IMG/VR virus record: IMGVR_UViG_3300025104_000004
Span: 1-31,480 of that record
Strand: one strand, 5' to 3'
Length of the DNA stretch: 31,480 bases
Source of the DNA: a virus
Notes under the pieces: model-generated
Databases searched by the model: none
What the model saw: the letters and a program-made list of their open reading frames with translations, nothing else
What the model was told of the DNA's origin: nothing
Translations under genes and position numbers: made by a program
Shown here: positions 14,512 through 31,480 of the stretch, piece by piece
Layout: each line of letters starts with the position of its first letter
How positions within the stretch are numbered: position 1 is the stretch's first letter

Positions 14512-14961
14512 AGTTCTTTCCTCCTTCTTTTTTGAACCGTTTAAACCGTTTGACCCGTCTTCAAACTCTATAGTCAATCCGCCGTCATCGCCAAAGGCGA
14601 AATCGGGCAGCCCCTTAATAGCAGGCGGCATAGCGCCTAAAAATCCAATATGCCGCAATGTCATATCGGGATATAGCGAAATAGAGCGCTTCTTGAAAAG
14701 CCCTCTTTTAACCATATCCACAAACTCCGGGACTAAGTCTTTGAGCTTTGCGTAAAGGACGCTGCCCTTGCGCTCCAATCTCTCCACCCATCCGTATGCA
14801 GGTGCGTTGTCCTTCGGATGCCCAATCACAACCGGTGCCTCGTGCTCTTTGTGGTTGTATTTCTTGACGATGGCGTCAAGGTCTGCCTCCGTCCATGTCC
14901 TGACGTTGCCGTTTGAGTCCGTGTGAGTGCCTGCTTTGAAGACTGCTATCCAGTCATTCAT
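13897..14961 (-). CDS. Head maturation protease with in-frame scaffold (Mu gpI/gpZ-like)
   Basis: The 354-residue protein cleaves head proteins during maturation. The N-terminal protease part holds VVIGHPKD (His48), KKRSISLYPD (Ser93/Ser95) and LRHIGFLGAMPPAIKGL (His104 region), the conserved blocks of the Mu gpI serine protease. Residues 151-354 are the scaffold, with a long charged coiled coil (~190-265). Between them a degenerate 9-bp repeat has inserted in frame and encodes DGSNGLNGSKKK (136-146). ATG 14961 overlaps the gpG stop as ATGA. A second, internal start makes the scaffold alone. Confidence 0.87.
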   Translation of the reverse strand: MNDWIAVFKAGTHTDSNGNVRTWTEADLDAIVKKYNHKEHEAPVVIGHPKDNAPAYGWVERLERKGSVLYAKLKDLVPEFVDMVKRGLFKKRSISLYPDMTLRHIGFLGAMPPAIKGLPDFAFGDDGGLTIEFEDGSNGLNGSKKKEERTMKFFDWIKGHAAKEGVTIEDAPPTFSESEVLTKVSEALKEKEREFEEKQRQIDAELRAREDAIRLKEAEFQKMEIEQFMEGLRKKGIITPAMEKLGMGITQFMQAIAPISTTVEFSEGDAKKNQTPLEFMKAFLSSLPSQIEFREIAGSAKDIGGTGTAESRLDAKTREMMKAKNVSYAVAFAEVQKENSELAQEYASELRGGK

Positions 14962-15607: not shown

Positions 15608-16920
15608 CCATAAAGCAATGCTCCTACCCTTTGCTTATTCATAGTTCTATCATTCGCCTGCATGATATTCCAAAGCAGGCTGCCGTCTTTGTTTAGCCTG
15701 ACTACGACAAGCAGATTTTCCTTGCCTGTAAAGAGTCCGATGTATCGTTCTCTCAAGCCGTCCTGATACTGTGTCAGATATATCTCATACGGATCGGTCA
15801 ATGCAGGGATTAGGTAGTTGGCATATCTTTCTCTTGGGTCAGTCTGTTTTCCCACAAGATGCGGTATAAACTCGGCTCGTAAGACAACCTGTTCTATTGG
15901 GGTCTCAATAATCCTATAGGGTTTTTTTTGCAGTTGGAGGGCATCGAGCATGATGAATGCAGCCTCTTCACGAGTTTGCGCAGCTTTTAGTAATGGCGGC
16001 GCAATTATCCTTTTATCATCGGATATGTGCCTTAAATCAGGTCTGCCGTAATCTTTCCATGTCTTTTGTCCTTTGAGAATTTTTACGCATCCGCTTTCTG
16101 TAAACCGCATGAAATTAAAACCCCCGGGGCAATCAGGAAGAAGACCATTTTTATCCCATCTGCCCCACTCCTTTCCCGGATTATAGTTCCATCCTACATC
16201 AGGGGATATCTTTTCCCCGGTAAACGGGTCGTCATAGACGGTGACAGTCGCCAGCTCGCCTGTCTTTTTAGAGACAAGGACATCTTTTTCAGTGAGTTTG
16301 CCGGTGGAGTCCGATACAATATTCCTTCTGTCTTTGATGTTTTTCTCAGACAGAGCCCTCACACGGCACCGGCAGCGAAAGCCCAGAGGCGGATAATGCG
16401 TGTTCCAGAAGGGGTCGTCATACCTGAAGACCTTGCCGTTTAGGGCGGCATGGGCGGGACGTGTCCTTGAATCCATAACGGCTACATACTGCCAGTATGG
16501 GCGGTCATCCACATTGTTCATCATCTCTTTATACCTGCCTGCCATGTATGCCGTCTGGAGGTTTGTTTGATAAATAGTCTTAAGCCTGTGCGGAGAGCCA
16601 AGCTGCACCTGCATAGCTCCTGTCTCATCCCCTACCATCTTCTTTCCCCACCAGCCTTTAGCTTTGAGCTTTGGCTCAAGCTCTTTTCTGAACTGCTCAA
16701 AGGTAATGCCATCGTCAATAGCTTTTTGTACCATGCCTCTGATGTCCTGAAGGATGTCCATCCGCATTGCTTTGGCTACTGTGAACGCCTTCGCGTGGGC
16801 TTCTTGCCATATATCGTGCCAGTCCCATGAGAAGGCATAGCCTTTGCTTTTAAAGTATTCAATAGCCTTCTCTGGAGGCAGCCCTATGGCGTATGATAGG
16901 TCAATGTTATTTATTGGCAT
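15601..16920 (-). CDS. Mu gpF-like minor head protein fused to a PBECR-type nuclease domain
   Basis: The 439-residue protein has two parts. Residues ~50-195 are the gpF/SPP1 gp7 minor head domain: helices, then VMDSRTRPAHAALNGKVFRYDDP and YPPLGFRCRCRVRALS with Cys183 and Cys185. Residues ~330-439 resemble the phage-Barnase-EndoU-ColicinE5/D-RelE-like (PBECR) toxin fold: VVLRAEFIPHLV (His354), DPRERYANYLIPALTDPYEIYL, GLRERYIGLFTG and a final NKQRVGALLYG. Such domains are known to ride on gpF-type proteins and are thought to be injected RNases. ATG 16920 has GGGTAGG just upstream and overlaps the portal by 14 bases; a GTG at 16941 lacks a binding site. Confidence 0.83.
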   Translation of the reverse strand: MPINNIDLSYAIGLPPEKAIEYFKSKGYAFSWDWHDIWQEAHAKAFTVAKAMRMDILQDIRGMVQKAIDDGITFEQFRKELEPKLKAKGWWGKKMVGDETGAMQVQLGSPHRLKTIYQTNLQTAYMAGRYKEMMNNVDDRPYWQYVAVMDSRTRPAHAALNGKVFRYDDPFWNTHYPPLGFRCRCRVRALSEKNIKDRRNIVSDSTGKLTEKDVLVSKKTGELATVTVYDDPFTGEKISPDVGWNYNPGKEWGRWDKNGLLPDCPGGFNFMRFTESGCVKILKGQKTWKDYGRPDLRHISDDKRIIAPPLLKAAQTREEAAFIMLDALQLQKKPYRIIETPIEQVVLRAEFIPHLVGKQTDPRERYANYLIPALTDPYEIYLTQYQDGLRERYIGLFTGKENLLVVVRLNKDGSLLWNIMQANDRTMNKQRVGALLYGK

Positions 16921-18409
16921 TAAGCCTACCCCACAGCTCACTTACAAAAATAGCCCTTGCAAGCATTTCTTCAATTGCCTTTGTGTCCATATCTGGATAT
17001 GTCTCTATAAGTTTTTCCATCACGGCGTTGTGATCACCGCTCTCATTGATGAGGTCAATGATGGGTTTCAATATGCCCTCCATTTGCTCTTGCAGCTGCT
17101 CGGGCGTGATGGAATCAATCGCATCATCAAGAGTCTGCTGGTCAGGATACTGCTCGAACTTAGCGCTGAAATCAGAAGTCTCTCCTTCCGCGCTTCCGAG
17201 CTTCCGAACTGCCTGCAATACTTCCTCTCTACCTCCTACAATCTCCTCCCCTTTCTTCGGCTCTGGGATTGCATAAGTCTGATAAATATAAGACAGCGGG
17301 ATAGGCACACCCATCCGTGCAAGTATCTCGTCCCTCTCTGCTAATGGCTTTGTGTCCTTTTCTTCCTCATATCTTATCCAGACCTTTGGATATCCATGCC
17401 TTCTGTCGGGGGGCGGGAAGTTATAATCTACTATCCAACGTATGAGCTGGTTGTTCTCCGCCTCGCACAAATTGTCTGCATCCGCCTTGATGTAGTCCTT
17501 TCTTACCTCCTCATGGATCCTTGCGGCTGCATAGCTGCCTGAACTGCCGATTTCGCTTGATAACGTCTGACCCAGAATTATCTGCGCTATCTGTCTGTCC
17601 ATATAGTCGCACAGAGATTCATAAGTGTTGACAGTGCCGGCGCGTTGAGCCTCAAGATACTCGATTGCCATATTGTCCGGTATCTTGATTGCCGTCTCCT
17701 GCTGTATCGCCTCCAATGCCGCAAGTAATGCATCCTGCTGTTCTTTGGATGTCCCCTGCGGATACTTGCCTATCGTTGTCGGTGAGCCGAACTTTTCAGC
17801 GAATATCATCCAGAACTTGATCGCATTCTTCTTAAACCACACAGGCCAGTAAAGCAGCCTGCCAAGTCCGTCCCCGTATGGCGAGCCGTTGTCTGATGGA
17901 TTGACAAAGACCTGAAACTTTCTGTCGGGCAGCTCCTCTCCTTCAATCATATTTGATATAGTTAGCAGCCGGAGTTTGTGGTCTTTATCAAAGACGAATC
18001 TCTTTGAGGCGCGGGGGATTATTTTTTCAATATAGACGTCCCCTTCAGAATACCCCCACATTATCTCTGCCGGCTTAAAGCCCAGCACTATCCCTGACAG
18101 GGCTGCCATTCTATATCCGTCATAGTTAATAGACTTCAGGACTTCCTTCACATATTCGGCGATCTTCACATCCTGCCGTTTTTCCGTTGCGGGCAGCACT
18201 TCCCACTCCTTGCCTACAACTGCAAGCTTGCGGGTCTGGAGAGCGGAGCCTACCTTCGCCTCTCTGAGTAAATCTTCGTATAGTTCTATCCCCTTGCCCG
18301 CTGATTCGGATTTAAGCACCTTATCAGGATTTAGAATCGTTTTTCCGATGTAGTCATGAAAGATGTCCTTCTCTATGCCTGCTATTTCGTCTGTTATGGG
18401 TTTTTCCAT
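16907..18409 (-). CDS. Portal protein (Mu gp29-like, DUF935)
   Basis: The 500-residue portal forms the dodecameric DNA gate. Typical DUF935 blocks are visible: residues ~30-80 (LYEDLLREAKVGSALQTRKLAVVGKEWEV), ~155-200 (KFQVFVNPSDNGSPYGDGLGR, WPVWFKKNAIKFWMIFAEKFG), ~270-305 (DRQIAQIILGQTLSSEIGSSG) and IRWIVDYNFPP (~340). AGGGG lies about 8 bases before the ATG. Around residue 400 the code REEVLQAVRKLGSAEGE comes from a degenerate 8-bp tandem repeat at 17184-17208, an in-frame host-type insertion. The 11-base gap to the terminase and the overlap with gpF fit one operon. Confidence 0.9.
   Translation of the reverse strand: MEKPITDEIAGIEKDIFHDYIGKTILNPDKVLKSESAGKGIELYEDLLREAKVGSALQTRKLAVVGKEWEVLPATEKRQDVKIAEYVKEVLKSINYDGYRMAALSGIVLGFKPAEIMWGYSEGDVYIEKIIPRASKRFVFDKDHKLRLLTISNMIEGEELPDRKFQVFVNPSDNGSPYGDGLGRLLYWPVWFKKNAIKFWMIFAEKFGSPTTIGKYPQGTSKEQQDALLAALEAIQQETAIKIPDNMAIEYLEAQRAGTVNTYESLCDYMDRQIAQIILGQTLSSEIGSSGSYAAARIHEEVRKDYIKADADNLCEAENNQLIRWIVDYNFPPPDRRHGYPKVWIRYEEEKDTKPLAERDEILARMGVPIPLSYIYQTYAIPEPKKGEEIVGGREEVLQAVRKLGSAEGETSDFSAKFEQYPDQQTLDDAIDSITPEQLQEQMEGILKPIIDLINESGDHNAVMEKLIETYPDMDTKAIEEMLARAIFVSELWGRLNANK
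17184..17208. repeat. Degenerate 8-bp tandem repeat (CTTCCGnG) inside the portal gene
   Basis: CTTCCG recurs three times at 8-bp steps (plus-strand reading). The same family occurs at 20072-20106 and 28067-28110. Here it is read in frame as part of a linker near portal residue 400. Confidence 0.7.
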
Positions 18410-20071: not shown

Positions 20072-20106
20072 GACTTCCGAGCTTCCGCGCTCCCTAACTT
20101 CCCGAC
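20072..20106. repeat. Degenerate 8-bp tandem repeat between the terminase subunit genes
   Basis: The segment reads as CTTCCGAG, CTTCCGCG and similar units on the plus strand. It fills most of the 59-bp gap between small and large terminase genes, where a ribosome binding site would be expected. Confidence 0.7.
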
Positions 20107-24131: not shown

Positions 24132-24527
24132 TTACATTGCGTATGCCACCCCTGCGACTGGTAATGCAAAATACACCCTTGTCTGATTCAGTGATACATG
24201 CACGATCTCCGCTATCACCTTCACCATGCCGACTGAATAGACCTGCACAATCGGATGCCTGCCGAAATTGTGATTGATAATCCATTCCGCTGATGCAGTT
24301 GTCTGACTATGAACATAGTAAGCCGATGTTCCTTCCGACCATTCGGCGTCATAATCCTGCGCCGTTTTCTTTCTTAACACCTGACCTGTCTCTCCGCCAG
24401 ACGGCAGCCCAGCGGATTTAGACAGCTGGATATTAATCACATCAGGTGGCGTTATCGTTACATTAATCACATCAGGTGGCGTTATCGTTACATTAATCAC
24501 ATCAGGTGGCGTTATCGTTATGCTCAT
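24132..24527 (-). CDS. Short fibre-like protein with three N-terminal TITPPDVINV repeats
   Basis: This 131-residue protein starts MSITITPPDVINV and repeats TITPPDVINV three times, encoded by the 30-bp direct repeat at 24431-24520. A linker (GGETGQVLRKKT) leads to a beta-rich C-terminal domain, WIINHNFGRHPIVQVY ... TRVYFALPVAG, which resembles the tip of the neighbouring fibre protein. Such a layout suits a small trimeric receptor-binding or collar protein with a repeat shaft. ATG 24527 overlaps the upstream stop as ATGA. Confidence 0.75.
   Translation of the reverse strand: MSITITPPDVINVTITPPDVINVTITPPDVINIQLSKSAGLPSGGETGQVLRKKTAQDYDAEWSEGTSAYYVHSQTTASAEWIINHNFGRHPIVQVYSVGMVKVIAEIVHVSLNQTRVYFALPVAGVAYAM
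24431..24520 (-). repeat. Three near-identical 30-bp tandem repeats in the short fibre gene
   Basis: Units 24431-24460, 24461-24490 and 24491-24520 are identical except for the first base of the first unit. Each encodes ten residues. The lack of synonymous drift marks a very recent, slippage-prone expansion that could change shaft length. Confidence 0.95.
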
Positions 24528-24956: not shown

Positions 24957-25006
24957 GTAGGGGCGCAATTTATTGTGTCCTTAACTTTGATGAATCAAAA
25001 CCCTAC
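24957..25006. repeat. Decayed copy of a palindromic interspersed repeat (GTAGGGG...CCCTAC)
   Basis: The segment begins GTAGGGGCGCAATTTATTG (24957-24975) and ends with TTTGATGAATCAAAACCCTAC (24986-25006), matching the two halves of the copy at 27984-28032 in a different arrangement. The outer GTAGGG/CCCTAC ends are inverted repeats, a MITE- or REP-like form. It fills the gap after the outer-membrane-like gene. The gap from 24914 holds no gene. Confidence 0.75.
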
Positions 25007-26306: not shown

Positions 26307-26609
26307 CTATACATCAGTGAAGATGAGTCCCTGTTTGACGTCAAGGCTGTTTTTCAGGATCTCGTATATCCACCTTTCTGAATATCCTGTCTCCCTTGCA
26401 AGCTCTTTATGATTGTTTCCGTTGAAGTTCTTTTTTATGTATTTGGCCTTCTTCTTGGCTATCAGGCTATCAAGCCCGGCAAAATAAAAAGACATCTTGG
26501 CATAATGCTGGGCGAGTAATAGGGTGTTCTCCACCCCTATAATTTCTGCCATCTCCCGATACCGATCCGGGAGATCATCAATGGATATATCTTTTATCCA
26601 CTCGTTCAT
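26307..26609 (-). CDS. mor: Mor-like transcription activator
   Basis: The 100-residue protein has the N-terminal dimerisation helices (LPDRYREMAEIIGVENTLLLAQ), a Tyr/Gly-bearing strand segment (AGLDSLIAKKKAKYIKKNF) and a C-terminal helix-turn-helix (NNHKELARETGYSERWIYEIL). That is the order found in Mor/C family activators of Mu-like phages. It starts at an ATG overlapping the gemA-like stop as TAATG. It would turn on the promoter that follows it and thus the lysis, head and tail genes. No separate C activator is seen. Confidence 0.88.
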   Translation of the reverse strand: MNEWIKDISIDDLPDRYREMAEIIGVENTLLLAQHYAKMSFYFAGLDSLIAKKKAKYIKKNFNGNNHKELARETGYSERWIYEILKNSLDVKQGLIFTDV

Positions 26610-27055
26610 TAAAACTGCTCACCCACAGGCTCGACTGCTGACGCTTTATTCTGTCTTTTCAGCATCGCCTTCAAGCACTCTATCATCTTTGATGCCTCTG
26701 TTGATGTTGTGATCCTATCCTTGCCGATGACCTTTTTCATCAATCTAAAATACCCGTTATGGTGCCTCCATCGGACATCCGCCCTGAGATGCTCAAGCTT
26801 TGCCAGCTCCTGCCGGCTGACCATATTAATTATATTGTTGCCTTTCGGCCTCGGCAGGCGTCGGCGGGGCTTGATGCGGAAGCCCCGCTCTTTGAGGGAA
26901 TCTATCAGGGCGGAAGCCTGCTCATAAGATAGGTCTTTGGAGCTATTGGCGTCATATTCCCTGCCGAGAATAGCCCTGTATTCAGGCTCCCCGATGCCGA
27001 GCTGTTTAAGTGCGATATGTATCAGCTTAATCTGCTTGTCGCTAATCATGGACAT
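26609..27055 (-). CDS. gemA: GemA/gp16-like regulatory protein (DUF1018)
   Basis: The 148-residue protein starts MSMISDKQIKLIHIALKQLG and contains YRAILGREYDANSSKDLSYEQASALIDSLKERG and a basic linker. These are the conserved N-terminal blocks of the GemA family. In Mu this early gene alters host gene expression and DNA supercoiling. ATG 27055 has GAGG seven bases upstream; a TTG two codons earlier is not needed. It overlaps the winged-helix gene by 14 bases and is coupled to mor. Confidence 0.87.
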   Translation of the reverse strand: MSMISDKQIKLIHIALKQLGIGEPEYRAILGREYDANSSKDLSYEQASALIDSLKERGFRIKPRRRLPRPKGNNIINMVSRQELAKLEHLRADVRWRHHNGYFRLMKKVIGKDRITTSTEASKMIECLKAMLKRQNKASAVEPVGEQF

Positions 27056-27476
27056 CTTCAATCCTCATCTGCCCGAATATCCTTTCATACGCTTGCCTGT
27101 TTATCGCCCTGAGCCTTTTAGCCAGAGATATGATTCTGTTCTCAAGCTGCTTCACCCCTGCCATGTATTCCTCATTCGTGACGGGGTAGTAATACCCGGC
27201 AGGGCTGCCGACGGCAGAGACTATCATTATATTGTGCTCTTCCACGAGATGCTTCACTATCCGCCTTACCTCGACACTACTAAGCCCCGTCTGCTCCGAG
27301 AGAAATGACACACTCCGGGCGCTCTGCCTCCCGTGCCTGAGCAGTTCAAGCAGCCTCATCTCATGCCCCGTCATGTCGTATCTTATTTGCATCTGTCTGT
27401 CTTGCATAGCCTCATCAGTGGCGGACTTACCGCCAGACGGAGAGCCGCAGCCCTCCGTTTCGGCATTACGCCGCAT
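27042..27476 (-). CDS. Winged-helix DNA-binding protein of the early region
   Basis: The protein has 144 residues. The N-terminal ~30 residues are polar and of low complexity. Residues ~35-100 form a winged helix: MRLLELLRHGRQSARSVSFLSEQTGLSSVEVRRIVKHLVEEHN (helix-turn-helix), then a beta wing IMIVSAVGSPAGYYYP. A C-terminal helix (QLENRIISLAKRLRAINRQAY) could dimerise. GAAGGTG precedes the ATG. It lies between gam- and gemA-like genes and overlaps both, so it could regulate the early region. No named family is assigned. Confidence 0.78.
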   Translation of the reverse strand: MRRNAETEGCGSPSGGKSATDEAMQDRQMQIRYDMTGHEMRLLELLRHGRQSARSVSFLSEQTGLSSVEVRRIVKHLVEEHNIMIVSAVGSPAGYYYPVTNEEYMAGVKQLENRIISLAKRLRAINRQAYERIFGQMRIEDVHD

Positions 27477-27957
27477 CTTTCACCTTCTCGATATTAGGCT
27501 CTATCTTCAGCCTGTCCTCAATCTTTCTCGATGCCCCGATGCGGGCAAGCGTGGCGTCATCCAGATTGAGCATCAAATCCTTATCTGGCTCCTTAACGAT
27601 TCTTAAATACCCATCAAGCCCCAGAGCCTCCATAGCTGCCACACAAGCCTTCTTTGCCCTTATGATAATCTTGGTGGTGACCCTGAAGCTAATAACCCCA
27701 AAGGTTAATTCCTTTGTCCTTGTCTTTAAGAATTCGTCTTTTTTGCTCTCTGCGAAGGCTGTGACCATCTTCTCCAGAGCCTTCCTTTCACTTCTTATAG
27801 CCTCAACCTTGGCTTCAGCCTCTGCCTTTATCTCATTAATCCTGAGAGTCATATCCCCCTCGATTTTTGAGATGGCAATGTCAATCTCTCCCATGCGCTT
27901 AAGCGCCTCATCTACCTGCTCCCACGAGATTAAAACAGGCGCTGTGCTTTTTTTCAT
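27466..27957 (-). CDS. gam: Gam-like host-nuclease inhibitor (DNA end protector)
   Basis: The 163-residue protein starts MKKSTAPVLISWEQVDEALKRMGEIDIAISKIEGDM. It is mostly a long helix/coiled coil (ALEKMVTAFAESKKDEF) followed by a beta hairpin (TKELTFGVISFRVTTKI) and GYLRIVKEPDKDLML. This is the Mu Gam layout, a Ku-like dimer that binds double-stranded ends and blocks RecBCD. An exact GGAGG lies 5-6 bases before ATG 27957, so this start is well supported. The open frame, however, continues upstream without a stop through a composite repeat into a zinc-ribbon ORF. Confidence 0.88.
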   Translation of the reverse strand: MKKSTAPVLISWEQVDEALKRMGEIDIAISKIEGDMTLRINEIKAEAEAKVEAIRSERKALEKMVTAFAESKKDEFLKTRTKELTFGVISFRVTTKIIIRAKKACVAAMEALGLDGYLRIVKEPDKDLMLNLDDATLARIGASRKIEDRLKIEPNIEKVKDAA

Positions 27958-28194
27958 CTCCGCCTCCTTTTCTTTAATATTTTGGGTTTGATTCATCAAA
28001 CCCCTACTGTAGGGGCGCAATTTATTGCGCCCTTGAACCGATTGAACCGCTTGAACGGTTTGATCCTTGCTTCCGCCCTTCCGAGCTTCCGTGTTTCCCC
28101 ACTTCCGTTCTATAGCCTCTGTTATCCTGCATACTGCGCAAATGCCCGATTTGCAATTAGTTGGATTTCCGCATTTCTGACAAGCCTTTTCCAC
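27466..28194 (-). CDS. Zinc-ribbon small ORF reading in frame through host repeats into gam (possible fusion, 242 aa)
   Basis: A GTG at 28194 with GGAGG 7 bases upstream starts a small protein EKACQKCGNPTNCKSGICAVCR with two CxxC-type pairs, then an Arg/Glu helix. Its expected end is replaced by three repeat types in a row: 8-bp units (28067-28110), 9-bp units encoding TVQAVQSVQ (28033-28066) and a palindromic repeat encoding GRNKLRPYSRG (27984-28032). No stop occurs before gam. So either a 242-residue fusion is made, or both starts are used, with gam mainly from 27957. The zinc part is probably an independent small gene extended by the insertion. Confidence 0.6.
   Translation of the reverse strand: MEKACQKCGNPTNCKSGICAVCRITEAIERKWGNTEARKGGSKDQTVQAVQSVQGRNKLRPYSRGLMNQTQNIKEKEAEMKKSTAPVLISWEQVDEALKRMGEIDIAISKIEGDMTLRINEIKAEAEAKVEAIRSERKALEKMVTAFAESKKDEFLKTRTKELTFGVISFRVTTKIIIRAKKACVAAMEALGLDGYLRIVKEPDKDLMLNLDDATLARIGASRKIEDRLKIEPNIEKVKDAA
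27984..28032. repeat. Palindromic interspersed repeat pair upstream of gam
   Basis: Two perfect inverted repeats lie side by side. GGGTTTGAT and ATCAAACCC are separated by 2 bases (27984-28003), and GGGCGCAAT and ATTGCGCCC by 2 bases (28013-28032). CCTACTGTAGG joins them. A rearranged, decayed copy occurs at 24957-25006. The form is REP/MITE-like and likely host derived. Confidence 0.85.
28033..28110. repeat. Tandem 9-bp (TTGAACCGn) then 8-bp (CTTCCGnG) degenerate repeats
   Basis: Plus-strand units TTGAACCGA, TTGAACCGC, TTGAACGGT and TTGATCC occupy 28033-28066. These are followed by CTTCCGCC, CTTCCGAG, CTTCCGTG and TTCC-containing units to 28110. Both families recur elsewhere in the window. 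Here they are translated within the zinc-ribbon/gam frame. Confidence 0.8.
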
Positions 28195-28447
28195 TTTCAG
28201 CCTCCATCAAATCCCTGTATCTCTTTTCCTTCTTAATCAGCTTCTGGAGCCTGAGGCTTGCCACATCCAGATATAACGCCAATATCGCCCAGTCTGCATC
28301 GGTTGCATCTTTCCCTTCCGATAACATCAAATTCAAAGACATAGCATTATGAAACAGCTCATCCATAATGTCGAAAAAGTCTTTCCTATAGCCCGTCATA
28401 ATCTCCGAAGTCTTGTCCACAGACTCCAATTCCTCACACACCTGCAT
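28157..28447 (-). CDS. Early hypothetical helical protein, 96 aa
   Basis: The product starts MQVCEELESVDKTSEIMTGY and is almost all helix (DFFDIMDELFHNAMSLNLMLSE, ALYLDVASLRLQKLIKKEKRYRDLM). An exact GGAGG is 5-6 bases before ATG 28447; the upstream extension to 28483 lacks one. It overlaps both the zinc-ribbon gene before it (14 bases) and the zinc/gam ORF after it (38 bases). It belongs to the early operon but I recognise no family. Small helical proteins here are often host-takeover or anti-defence factors. Confidence 0.72.
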   Translation of the reverse strand: MQVCEELESVDKTSEIMTGYRKDFFDIMDELFHNAMSLNLMLSEGKDATDADWAILALYLDVASLRLQKLIKKEKRYRDLMEAESGKGLSEMRKSN

Positions 28448-28670
28448 AACCAACCTCCTTTTCCTTGATTTTTTTAATATCACTCCTTAATTTTTCTATC
28501 CACTCGTTATATCTCTCATCCCCCATTGTTGGTACCCATTTGCTCAAAAACATAAAAGCCCCCGATCCGCATGACGGACACACATGATAAACCGATTGAA
28601 CTGCTTGAACTGCCTTTACCTCATATACCTCATCGCAATTTGCACAAAGCCTTGCGTCTTTTATCTTCAT
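28434..28670 (-). CDS. Zinc-ribbon protein, 78 aa, with in-frame repeat insertion
   Basis: The small protein has two knuckles, CANC (residues 9-12) and CPSC (31-34), like a rubredoxin-type zinc ribbon. The segment between them includes VKAVQAVQSV, which is encoded by the degenerate 9-bp repeat at 28589-28614. The C-terminal half is a charged helix (WIEKLRSDIKKIKEKE). AGGAGGAG lies 4-5 bases before the ATG. Mu Com is also a small zinc protein but lies late, so equivalence is not claimed. It follows the MuB-like gene. Confidence 0.75.
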   Translation of the reverse strand: MKIKDARLCANCDEVYEVKAVQAVQSVYHVCPSCGSGAFMFLSKWVPTMGDERYNEWIEKLRSDIKKIKEKEVGYAGV

Positions 28671-28685: not shown

Positions 28686-28724
28686 TTCAAACCGTTTGAA
28701 TCGCTTAAACGGTTTGAACCGTTC
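28686..28724. repeat. 9-bp family repeat with inverted arms between zinc-ribbon and MuB-like genes
   Basis: The units include AAACCGTTT (28689-28697) and AAACGGTTT (28706-28714), which are exact inverted repeats, so a hairpin can form. It fills the 54-bp gap right after the MuB-like stop codon. Confidence 0.7.
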
Positions 28725-29945
28725 TTAAATCTTCATTACCACCGCTTCCGTCACCAGCGGCTCTCCGAGTTCATACGCTTCATTCATCGCCCTGACCATG
28801 ATATTATTAATAGTCAAGGGATAAGCGTTTGATACCTTACGCTTGCGGTCGTCAATGTCTGTGAGGCGCTTTGTTATCATCTCGATAGCCTTGTCATCGA
28901 TGATCCTTCCCAGTTCAGCCCCGACACGTTTAAATTTATGAGCCAAATAATCTTTGACATTGCCGTTCAATCCCCTGATATAGGCAATCTGGCAGCGCCT
29001 TATGACCTCCCTCATTTCATAATGGTCGTTCTCGTTAAACAGGCTGCCAAGCTCCGGCTGCCCTATCAGGATAATCCCGCAGGCTTTTTTATACCCGTGC
29101 TCGATTTCATAGATTCTTTTGAGGAATTTCAACACCCTGACCGTCAGTTCATGGGCTTCTTCGATCATCAAGACCGTTGTCGCCCCTGCCCTAATCCGGG
29201 AGATCAAGAGCTTCTCCACCTGCCTGGACTTCTGCTCGAGCTTGAGCTTTGGCGTTTCATCAGACAGATCCATGACGATTGCGTCGCATAGGCTCGCTGC
29301 CGTGACCCTTGTCTTGTCAATCATCCGAGGATAGATAATCCTGCATCTTTCGTCCCTCCCCAGTTCCTCAACGACACACTTTCTTATCGCCGATTTGCCC
29401 GATCCTACTTCCCCAATCACCGCCACAAAGCCCTGATTACGGGCGGCGTCCAGCATTACTTCTTTAATAAACCGATGTTCATCCGATAAATAGATATCCG
29501 CAACGTCCCTGATGTCGTTGACAAACGGACTCCTGAATAATTTAAAATGCCTCATCGCCTCTGCTGTAAGCATCTCTACCTCCTCATTAAATTCCACATT
29601 CCCGGCATCTCCGGGAGTCATAGCCCTTATAGCCCTGTTAATGGCTATCCTCTTCCACACACCCTTCGGGGCAGCGCCTTTCAGTTCTTTGCCAAGCGGC
29701 TGCCATATATCTGATATTTTAAGATTGCGCTTTTTAAGCCACTCTATTGCCTGCTCATTTCCAGACACCAGATTTTCAATTCTCTTTTTATAATCCTTGC
29801 ATCTTGTCGGCTCATATCCATGATTGATTATGCGGTTAATCCCCGCCCTCGATAGCCCTGTCGCCTTTGCTATAGCGCCCTGTGGGATATCTAAATCAAG
29901 AAGCAACTCTTTGATAATAAAGGGGCTGATTCTTTTGTCTGTCAT
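28725..29945 (-). CDS. MuB-like AAA+ ATPase (transposition target selector)
   Basis: The 406-residue protein has an N-terminal helix-turn-helix (residues ~18-42, PQGAIAKATGLSRAGINRII), a Walker A GEVGSGKS (178-185), a Walker B VLMIEEAHE (258-266) and a sensor strand IILIGQPELGSL (291-302). It ends with a small helical domain. This is the MuB/ExeA-type layout: MuB binds DNA as an ATP-dependent filament, brings target DNA to the transposase and gives target immunity. It is somewhat longer than Mu B (312 aa). It starts 27 bases after the transposase stop with a weak ribosome site (GGTGATGAT). Confidence 0.9.
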   Translation of the reverse strand: MTDKRISPFIIKELLLDLDIPQGAIAKATGLSRAGINRIINHGYEPTRCKDYKKRIENLVSGNEQAIEWLKKRNLKISDIWQPLGKELKGAAPKGVWKRIAINRAIRAMTPGDAGNVEFNEEVEMLTAEAMRHFKLFRSPFVNDIRDVADIYLSDEHRFIKEVMLDAARNQGFVAVIGEVGSGKSAIRKCVVEELGRDERCRIIYPRMIDKTRVTAASLCDAIVMDLSDETPKLKLEQKSRQVEKLLISRIRAGATTVLMIEEAHELTVRVLKFLKRIYEIEHGYKKACGIILIGQPELGSLFNENDHYEMREVIRRCQIAYIRGLNGNVKDYLAHKFKRVGAELGRIIDDKAIEMITKRLTDIDDRKRKVSNAYPLTINNIMVRAMNEAYELGEPLVTEAVVMKI

Positions 29946-29972: not shown

Positions 29973-31480
29973 TTACATTGCTGCAGCTCGAGACGCTGCC
30001 TGCCATTTCCCGCTTTTAATCTGCTCTATCACCTCCCCTACTTTTGACTTGCTGATGCCGTCGCCATACTCCGCCCTGAGAGCCTGATTAAGCCATGGCT
30101 CGATCCTGCCAATCGCATTCTTAACCTCGACAAGCAAGTCGGTAATAGATATCTGCCTGTCAAGGATGTTTCTGGATATCTCAAAGGCATCCGCCTTGAT
30201 CGGCTTATTTTCAGGTATTTCAGGCGGGCGGATATCAAGTTCTGTGCCTTTTCGGCGGATGAAGTCAACCCTGACCTTGTCGCTTTGATGGCCAAAGACT
30301 TTCAGCGGTGTTTCGTGCCCGACCGGCGGGGCAACTGCGATGCGTTTGTCGCCACTGCCCTTCCATGTGACGCCGAATTGCTCGGACGCTATCTTTTCCA
30401 TCTCAGCCTTCGCCTTTTGCGTTGTTGTGTGCTTGACGGCTTTGTATTGCCCGTAAGTAGTGCCCTGCGAGAGCCTGCCGTATTGGTCTTTTGCAATCGG
30501 TTGTAAGAGCCATGTCCGCCCGTTAAAATGTGCTTCAATCGCAGGATATTCGTATGGATTTATTACAACCTTAATCCTGCGGTTTGCGGCGTTAGGGTCT
30601 GGGATTTGATACACCTTGCCCTTAAGCCTGATATGCATTGAGCCGTTTGCCCTGCAGTCAATCTCAGGCTTGCGGATGAGCATGGTATATATTTCACGCT
30701 CAGGGCACAATCTCAATTGCTCGCTCCTGATGGTTGACCACATGGCAGATCGCGGAGACACGCCGCGCATGTCCTTTGCGCCGTTGTACATGATGCACCA
30801 GTCCAGCGCCCATGCGTTAAGCTCTGCAAGGTCTCTCGGTCTCTGAAATTTAAGCCGCGCTTCAAAGCGGTTGATTATCTTCATAAGCCCTTCAACAGCG
30901 CCCTTTGCCCTCGGATTGCCGGGCATGTGAGGCCTTACATCTATGCGCAGCGCTCTCAAAAGATTTTGATTGGCTTTATCAATAATAATGGAGCCTCTGT
31001 CAGGTATGAGTATGAAGGGCACGCCGTGAAAGTGATACTTGCCGATCATGGATTCGGCAGCGCCGTTGAAACATTCCTTTATTATCTCGTCTTTTTGCCT
31101 GAAAGCCTTGTAGAGAAAATCAGCTCCGTCAATCGCCCTCTCACCAGAGGCATAGTAATACCAGAAGAAAAATGCGCCTGTGCAATGGTCAACAACCGCA
31201 TAACGGAGGAGTTCTTTTTTGATGGACTTGGCTGTCTTGATTATTTTGTTTTTGTATAGCTCCATATCAGCGTCTCTCTCTCCCATTCCTTTGTCGTCAA
31301 GGAAGTATTGAATGCAGTTCGTTACGTCAAACTGCCAGACATGATTGGGATGCTCGCTGAGAAGTGTCTGGTGCGGCGCAGGGCGGAGTATGTCCTTAGC
31401 CGATATTTCTCTTTCGCGCATCAAGCCGACAAAACGCGAGGTCGAAACCCCTATGTCTACCCCTGAGTCTTCAAGTATTT
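29973..31480 (-). CDS. MuA-like DDE transposase, N-terminus outside window
   Basis: At least 501 residues are open to the window edge, so the gene is partial at its 5' end. A TTG at 31424 is in frame but should not be the start, because EDSGVDIGVSTSRFVGL upstream of it reads as the end of a DNA-binding domain. The catalytic domain has VWQFDVT, then ILIPDRGS, then KGAVEGLMK. Numbered from the TTG these are Asp33, Asp142 and Glu178, with exactly 35 residues between the last two. A Mu-transposase C-terminal beta barrel follows (HIRLKGKVYQIPDP, RRIKVVINPYEYPAIEAHFNG) and then a C-terminal tail for MuB contact. MuA is 663 residues, so about 160 are missing. Confidence 0.93.
   Translation of the reverse strand, partial: ILEDSGVDIGVSTSRFVGLMREREISAKDILRPAPHQTLLSEHPNHVWQFDVTNCIQYFLDDKGMGERDADMELYKNKIIKTAKSIKKELLRYAVVDHCTGAFFFWYYYASGERAIDGADFLYKAFRQKDEIIKECFNGAAESMIGKYHFHGVPFILIPDRGSIIIDKANQNLLRALRIDVRPHMPGNPRAKGAVEGLMKIINRFEARLKFQRPRDLAELNAWALDWCIMYNGAKDMRGVSPRSAMWSTIRSEQLRLCPEREIYTMLIRKPEIDCRANGSMHIRLKGKVYQIPDPNAANRRIKVVINPYEYPAIEAHFNGRTWLLQPIAKDQYGRLSQGTTYGQYKAVKHTTTQKAKAEMEKIASEQFGVTWKGSGDKRIAVAPPVGHETPLKVFGHQSDKVRVDFIRRKGTELDIRPPEIPENKPIKADAFEISRNILDRQISITDLLVEVKNAIGRIEPWLNQALRAEYGDGISKSKVGEVIEQIKSGKWQAASRAAAM

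Follow-up and report, generated by a model that had tools for sequence, protein, structure and literature searches.

Short bacterial repeats join a small Cys-rich reading frame to gam in a Mu-like phage, probably by accident

Proteins of the Mu Gam family (PF07352; phrog_491), for which 2p2u is a solved relative, are encoded after MuB in the early region of Mu-like phages. GTAG-tagged REPs (Di Nocera et al. 2013, PMC3733652) are palindromes of 20-40 bp with GTAG at one end. REP dimers are common within ORFs, and many of the REPs that are read into the 5' ends of ORFs are thought to be non-coding, with translation starting downstream (PMC3733652). A further described arrangement is the nested protease-scaffold ORF of the Mu gpI/gpZ type. 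Here, we describe a locus where REP-type palindromes lie directly before a gam gene. The window, by which we mean the whole stretch of DNA that was analysed, is a stand-alone virus record of 31,480 bases (IMG/VR) with no host genome attached.

The window has a Mu-like early region on the minus strand, and gam sits within it together with a putative MuA-type transposase, a MuB-like ATPase, GemA and Mor, which is the placement of Mu Gam. The genes and elements of the region are as follows.

29973-31424, minus strand: putative transposase (rve, below cut-off)
28725-29945, minus strand: MuB-like ATPase (AAA_22, 7.6e-19, over cut-off)
28434-28670, minus strand: Com-like zinc-ribbon ORF
28157-28483, minus strand: ORF directly upstream of the ORF reported here
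28104..28194, minus strand: Cys-rich (zinc-knuckle-type) part, from GTG 28194 with Shine-Dalgarno (SD) sequence GGAGG; VEKACQKCGNPTNCKSGICAVCRITEAIER; overlaps the end of ORF 28157-28483
28069..28107, no strand: imperfect 8-bp tandem array, CTTCCGAG type on the plus strand
28033..28065, no strand: 9-bp tandem array, TTGAACCGN on the plus strand, translated VQAVQSVQ
28009..28032, plus strand: GTAG-headed palindrome, REP type, GTAGGGGCGCAATTTATTGCGCCC; the exact element also occurs in phage L103
27984..28007, minus strand: GTAG-headed palindrome, REP type, GTAGGGGTTTGATGAATCAAACCC; tail to tail with 28009..28032, with 1 bp between
27958..27983, minus strand: spacer with the gam SD sequence AAGGAGG, 5 nt 5' of the ATG
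27466..27957, minus strand: gam (163 aa), starting at ATG 27957, which is M80 of the long ORF; own SD sequence AAGGAGG; PF07352 match, start as in relatives
27042-27476, minus strand: HTH ORF
26609-27061, minus strand: GemA (3.4e-14, over cut-off)
26307-26609, minus strand: Mor (2.9e-10, over cut-off)

The reported ORF (27466-28194, minus strand, 242 aa) runs for 242 codons without a stop, from GTG 28194 to the TAA at 27466-27468, and has two starts. The outer GTG is preceded by GGAGG at a distance of 6 nt, and the inner start, the gam ATG (27957-27955), by AAGGAGG at a spacing of 5 nt. The original prediction, that the Cys-rich or zinc ORF and gam each have a ribosome site and are joined without a stop through the 8-bp array, the 9-bp array and two palindromes, is confirmed in the sequence. 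It had also placed 79 open codons between the two genes; the frame is indeed open throughout, but the 79 codons span everything between the GTG and the ATG, Cys-rich part included. As the zinc ORF has no stop, any translation of it must yield a fusion. An independent contig, L002 (IMGVR 3300010288_000095), differs from the window by 3 SNPs in 4153 bp, all outside the ORF, and its identical copy of the ORF rules out an assembly error as the source of the join.

The Cys-rich part comprises about 30 codons, with the motifs CQKC and CAVC in the spacing CxxC-x10-CxxC, and the zinc ORF includes the peptide stretch VEKACQKCGNPTNCK. Its overlap with the upstream ORF 28157-28483 is 38 nt. The zinc ORF gave no meaningful match to Pfam, PHROGs or phage records; the CxxC pairs are there, but no zinc ribbon or knuckle profile in Pfam or PHROGs reached a meaningful E-value.

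The repeats are stacked over 124 bp, from 28107 down to 27984, and account for about 41 of the 79 codons (aa 30-71), all stop-free in the gam frame. Roughly half of what precedes Gam is thus repeat translation, since the arrays and the REP element are read through, the latter giving the peptide NKLRPY that is also found in L103. The two palindromes (28013-28032 and 27984-28003) have perfect arms of 9 bp each and loops of 2 nt, and the plus strand across the pair reads GGGTTTGATTCATCAAACCC-CTAC-T-GTAG-GGGCGCAATTTATTGCGCCC. Both elements have the length and the terminal GTAG of GTAG-REPs, and together they form an inverted, tail-to-tail dimer. None of 100 shuffles reached the window counts of any of the three motifs (8-bp, 9-bp and palindrome). 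The 171-nt RNA of the junction folds with z = -3.26 and forms both hairpins; neither is an intrinsic terminator, as no U-run follows. A literature search on the 8-bp and 9-bp arrays found nothing useful.

The other two frames over the junction are closed by stops within the palindromes, and the TAG within the GTAG head does not fall in the gam frame. The chance of 79 open codons is ∼1% at this base composition and 0.8% in the off-frames of the phage's own genes. With the stop-free repeats taken as given, ∼38 ordinary codons are left, for which we estimate a chance of ∼11%. Among 39 proteobacterial prophage gam genes, the frame ahead of the Gam domain is open for 90 codons or more in six (94 here). 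Frame openness taken alone is weak evidence for a fusion, because some prophage genes are about as open and the repeat block is itself stop-free.

The Gam domain is well defined. PF07352 matches aa 91-233 of the long ORF (E = 1.4e-29; 103.4 bits against a curated cut-off of 28.3), covering positions 1-149 of the 149 in the profile, and family membership suggests that this Gam binds and protects DNA ends. We compared it with 76 relatives (6 phage records, 24 IMG/VR loci, 7 further records and 39 proteobacterial prophage genes), which include records that are copies of each other, the phages being at 27-68% identity. In these, Gam homology begins past M80, and the Gam start is at about the equivalent of M80, within a few residues, nearly always with a clear SD sequence. 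A two-CxxC extension on Gam was found in none of the 76, some of them mutual copies, nor did any fuse the two proteins, with or without repeats. A single-protein Gam search of genome contigs gave no match.

Three relatives are informative about the junction. The closest, L015 (Gam 67% identical), has neither 7-9-bp arrays near gam nor REP-type palindromes before it, and no zinc ORF lies directly before its gam. In L019 and L053, gam is directly preceded by a Cys-rich ORF that shares its frame and ends in a TAA 0 nt and 9 nt before the ATG, respectively. Homology of these ORFs to the Cys-rich part here was not demonstrable. In L019, the C-terminal tail of this ORF is a short tandem array of the 7-bp type, so repeat-driven lengthening of a small ORF before gam seems to have happened elsewhere too. 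Among the relatives found, none was sufficiently similar at the DNA level to display the empty site.

Repeats of the same three kinds occur at six further sites in the window.

14531-14558: 9-bp array, within a linker of the protease/scaffold ORF, directly 5' of the nested scaffold start
17185-17214: 8-bp array, in ORF 16907-18409 (portal protein), within its variable C-terminal tail
20074-20102: 8-bp array, before the terminase
24957-25003: decayed copy of the REP-type pair, between genes
28587-28613: 9-bp array, in the Com-like protein, separating its two Cys pairs
28696-28719: 9-bp array, after MuB; L019 has a 9-bp array at the corresponding junction

Three of these six are in non-coding sequence, which makes up ∼4% of the window, and the rest are in variable linkers or a loop; by their sites, the repeats lodge at the least harmful places. 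The linker with the array at 14531-14558 is ∼5 residues longer than in L051. In the Com-like protein (28434-28670), the 9-bp array encodes the inter-Cys-pair loop VKAVQAVQSV, while the loop of the L015 homologue, PETVTFLDQRIVV, is two residues longer; the repeat therefore seems, on this sequence comparison, to have replaced the loop rather than lengthened it. The N-terminus of ORF 24132-24527 contains three perfect 30-bp tandem repeats (24432-24520; ITPPDVINVT repeats). One end of contig L002 is at these repeats, and its other end (28584) abuts the array at 28587.

Arrays of 7-9 bp are also abundant at gene junctions of the related phages L019 (2290-2972) and L017 (83-2954), with none there in L015; array abundance per phage probably follows the host. 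In L103 (IMGVR 3300003324_000458), the exact palindrome recurs at a gene junction, where a second GTAG palindrome accompanies it; 9-bp arrays of the TTGAAC type are nearby. There, as here, an ORF is read through the element, in that case overlapping real genes in another frame. A separate L103 ORF (4325-5260) has an apparent in-frame repeat insert, HHGAHGGHGEESLDSGFRRNDG, giving a repeat-decorated protein. We also looked for the repeats in hosts. The 24-bp REP pattern, with at most 1 mismatch, was absent from 398 Pseudomonadota genomes, and near matches to the element were found in Pantoea plasmids, where they are unannotated. The stacked-repeat pattern matched once in 84,980 genomes, in an apparent release-factor gene of a Thiotrichales MAG, a match that by eye is chance.

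In our judgement, the junction was most probably filled by repeats accidentally, with Gam translated from its own start and no purposeful fusion protein; we favour this most because gam in relatives normally starts alone. Three kinds of short bacterial repeat, namely an 8-bp array, a 9-bp array and a tail-to-tail pair of GTAG-type REPs, would have piled up between a small Cys-rich ORF and gam in the early operon of a Mu-like phage. As these are stop-free in the gam frame, the upstream ORF would have lost its stop, or never had one, and would continue into gam because the frames happen to agree. The 163-aa Gam would be translated from its own SD sequence and ATG 27957, as in relatives, and would protect DNA ends. 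A minor 242-aa read-through form may be made, since a ribosome that initiates at GTG 28194 meets no stop before gam; the floppy N-terminal tail of this form would be tolerated, not selected. This evidence agrees with the earlier suggestion that inserted repeats lengthened a small gene; we infer the insertion event itself. Against accidental filling stand the good SD sequence and two well-formed CxxC pairs of the zinc ORF, and the fact that just one of the three frames is open, namely that of gam; the ∼1% chance of so long an open stretch counts on the same side, softened to ∼11% with the repeats given.

The zinc ORF may be no gene at all, a reading to which we give perhaps one chance in a handful or slightly better. 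It would then only overlap the end of ORF 28157-28483 in another frame, with Cys codons and GGAGG arising by chance and gam still translated from its own ATG. The 38-nt overlap, the GTG start, the mere ∼30 codons before the repeats and the lack of homologues found are as expected of such a frame, but two CxxC pairs at conventional spacing and a well-placed SD sequence are not, and phages of this clade often carry Cys-rich ORFs between MuB and gam.

A little less probable, and in our view still unlikely, is a role for the repeats at the RNA or DNA level, with REP-dimer hairpins that protect the early mRNA, cause its cutting or keep translation of gam apart from that of the zinc ORF, the open frame being irrelevant. 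The stable fold of the junction RNA and the position of the gam SD sequence and ATG just 3' of the hairpins are consistent with this, as are the REPs of other bacteria, which are mostly transcribed and thought to be RNA elements (PMC3733652). L015, however, has its gam without such palindromes, and a role in termination fails on the missing U-runs. Both of these alternatives are compatible with accidental filling, and the probabilities we assign therefore do not sum to one.

We consider it improbable that the phage makes a real two-form protein, the inner start giving Gam (163 aa) and the outer start giving Zn-Gam (242 aa), in which a zinc knuckle adds nucleic-acid or partner binding and the repeats serve as a flexible linker. 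Good SD sequences at both starts, the CxxC-x10-CxxC motif, the unbroken frame by which translation of the zinc ORF gives a fusion, and an ORF identical in two assemblies all speak for it, as do the in-frame Cys-rich ORFs before gam in L019 and L053 and the comparable nested protease/scaffold ORF of the same phage. Yet no relative examined has the extension, the Cys-rich ORFs of L019 and L053 stop before gam, and the zinc part lacks a family match and is modelled with low confidence: AlphaFold, with alignment rows from the window and IMG/VR loci only, put aa 31-60 at a pLDDT of ∼50 and most of Gam at 85-94. A DNA-end protector fused to a zinc module, as originally proposed, finds no support in the relatives, which start Gam at the internal ATG. 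That the 8-bp array is a slippage switch, by which the phage population alternates between plain Gam and Zn-Gam (8 = 2 mod 3, so a one-unit change would shift the zinc ORF in or out of the gam frame), we regard as very improbable.

The locus is a clear case of bacterial short repeats and REP palindromes settling at gene junctions of a Mu-like phage. Such repeats can add dozens of probably meaningless residues to an annotated protein, and N-terminal extensions of this kind should not be taken for domain fusions. Production of zinc-Gam, if it occurs, would add a variant to the known end-protection proteins.

Compared with known systems, the protein shares with the Mu Gam family its full-length domain, start position and place after MuB, and differs in that only here is the frame open through repeats into an upstream Cys-rich ORF. 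The protease/scaffold ORF of this phage (13897-14961) is of the Mu gpI/gpZ type, with an in-frame nested start (M151) that has its own SD sequence and a 9-bp array just before it; its longer form is conserved in relatives (L051 and L052), whereas zinc-Gam is not. The REP pair of L103 shares the exact palindrome, a second GTAG palindrome, the gene junction and the TTGAAC-type 9-bp arrays, but is arranged head to head and belongs to another phage gene set. Unlike the GTAG-tagged REPs of Di Nocera et al. (PMC3733652), the elements here are in a phage, and we liken them by anatomy to the class as a whole, not to any one of the paper's 24 families. That anatomy comprises 24-bp palindromes with a GTAG end, in inverted pairs 1 bp apart and tail to tail, at a gene junction and read into the 5' end of an ORF.
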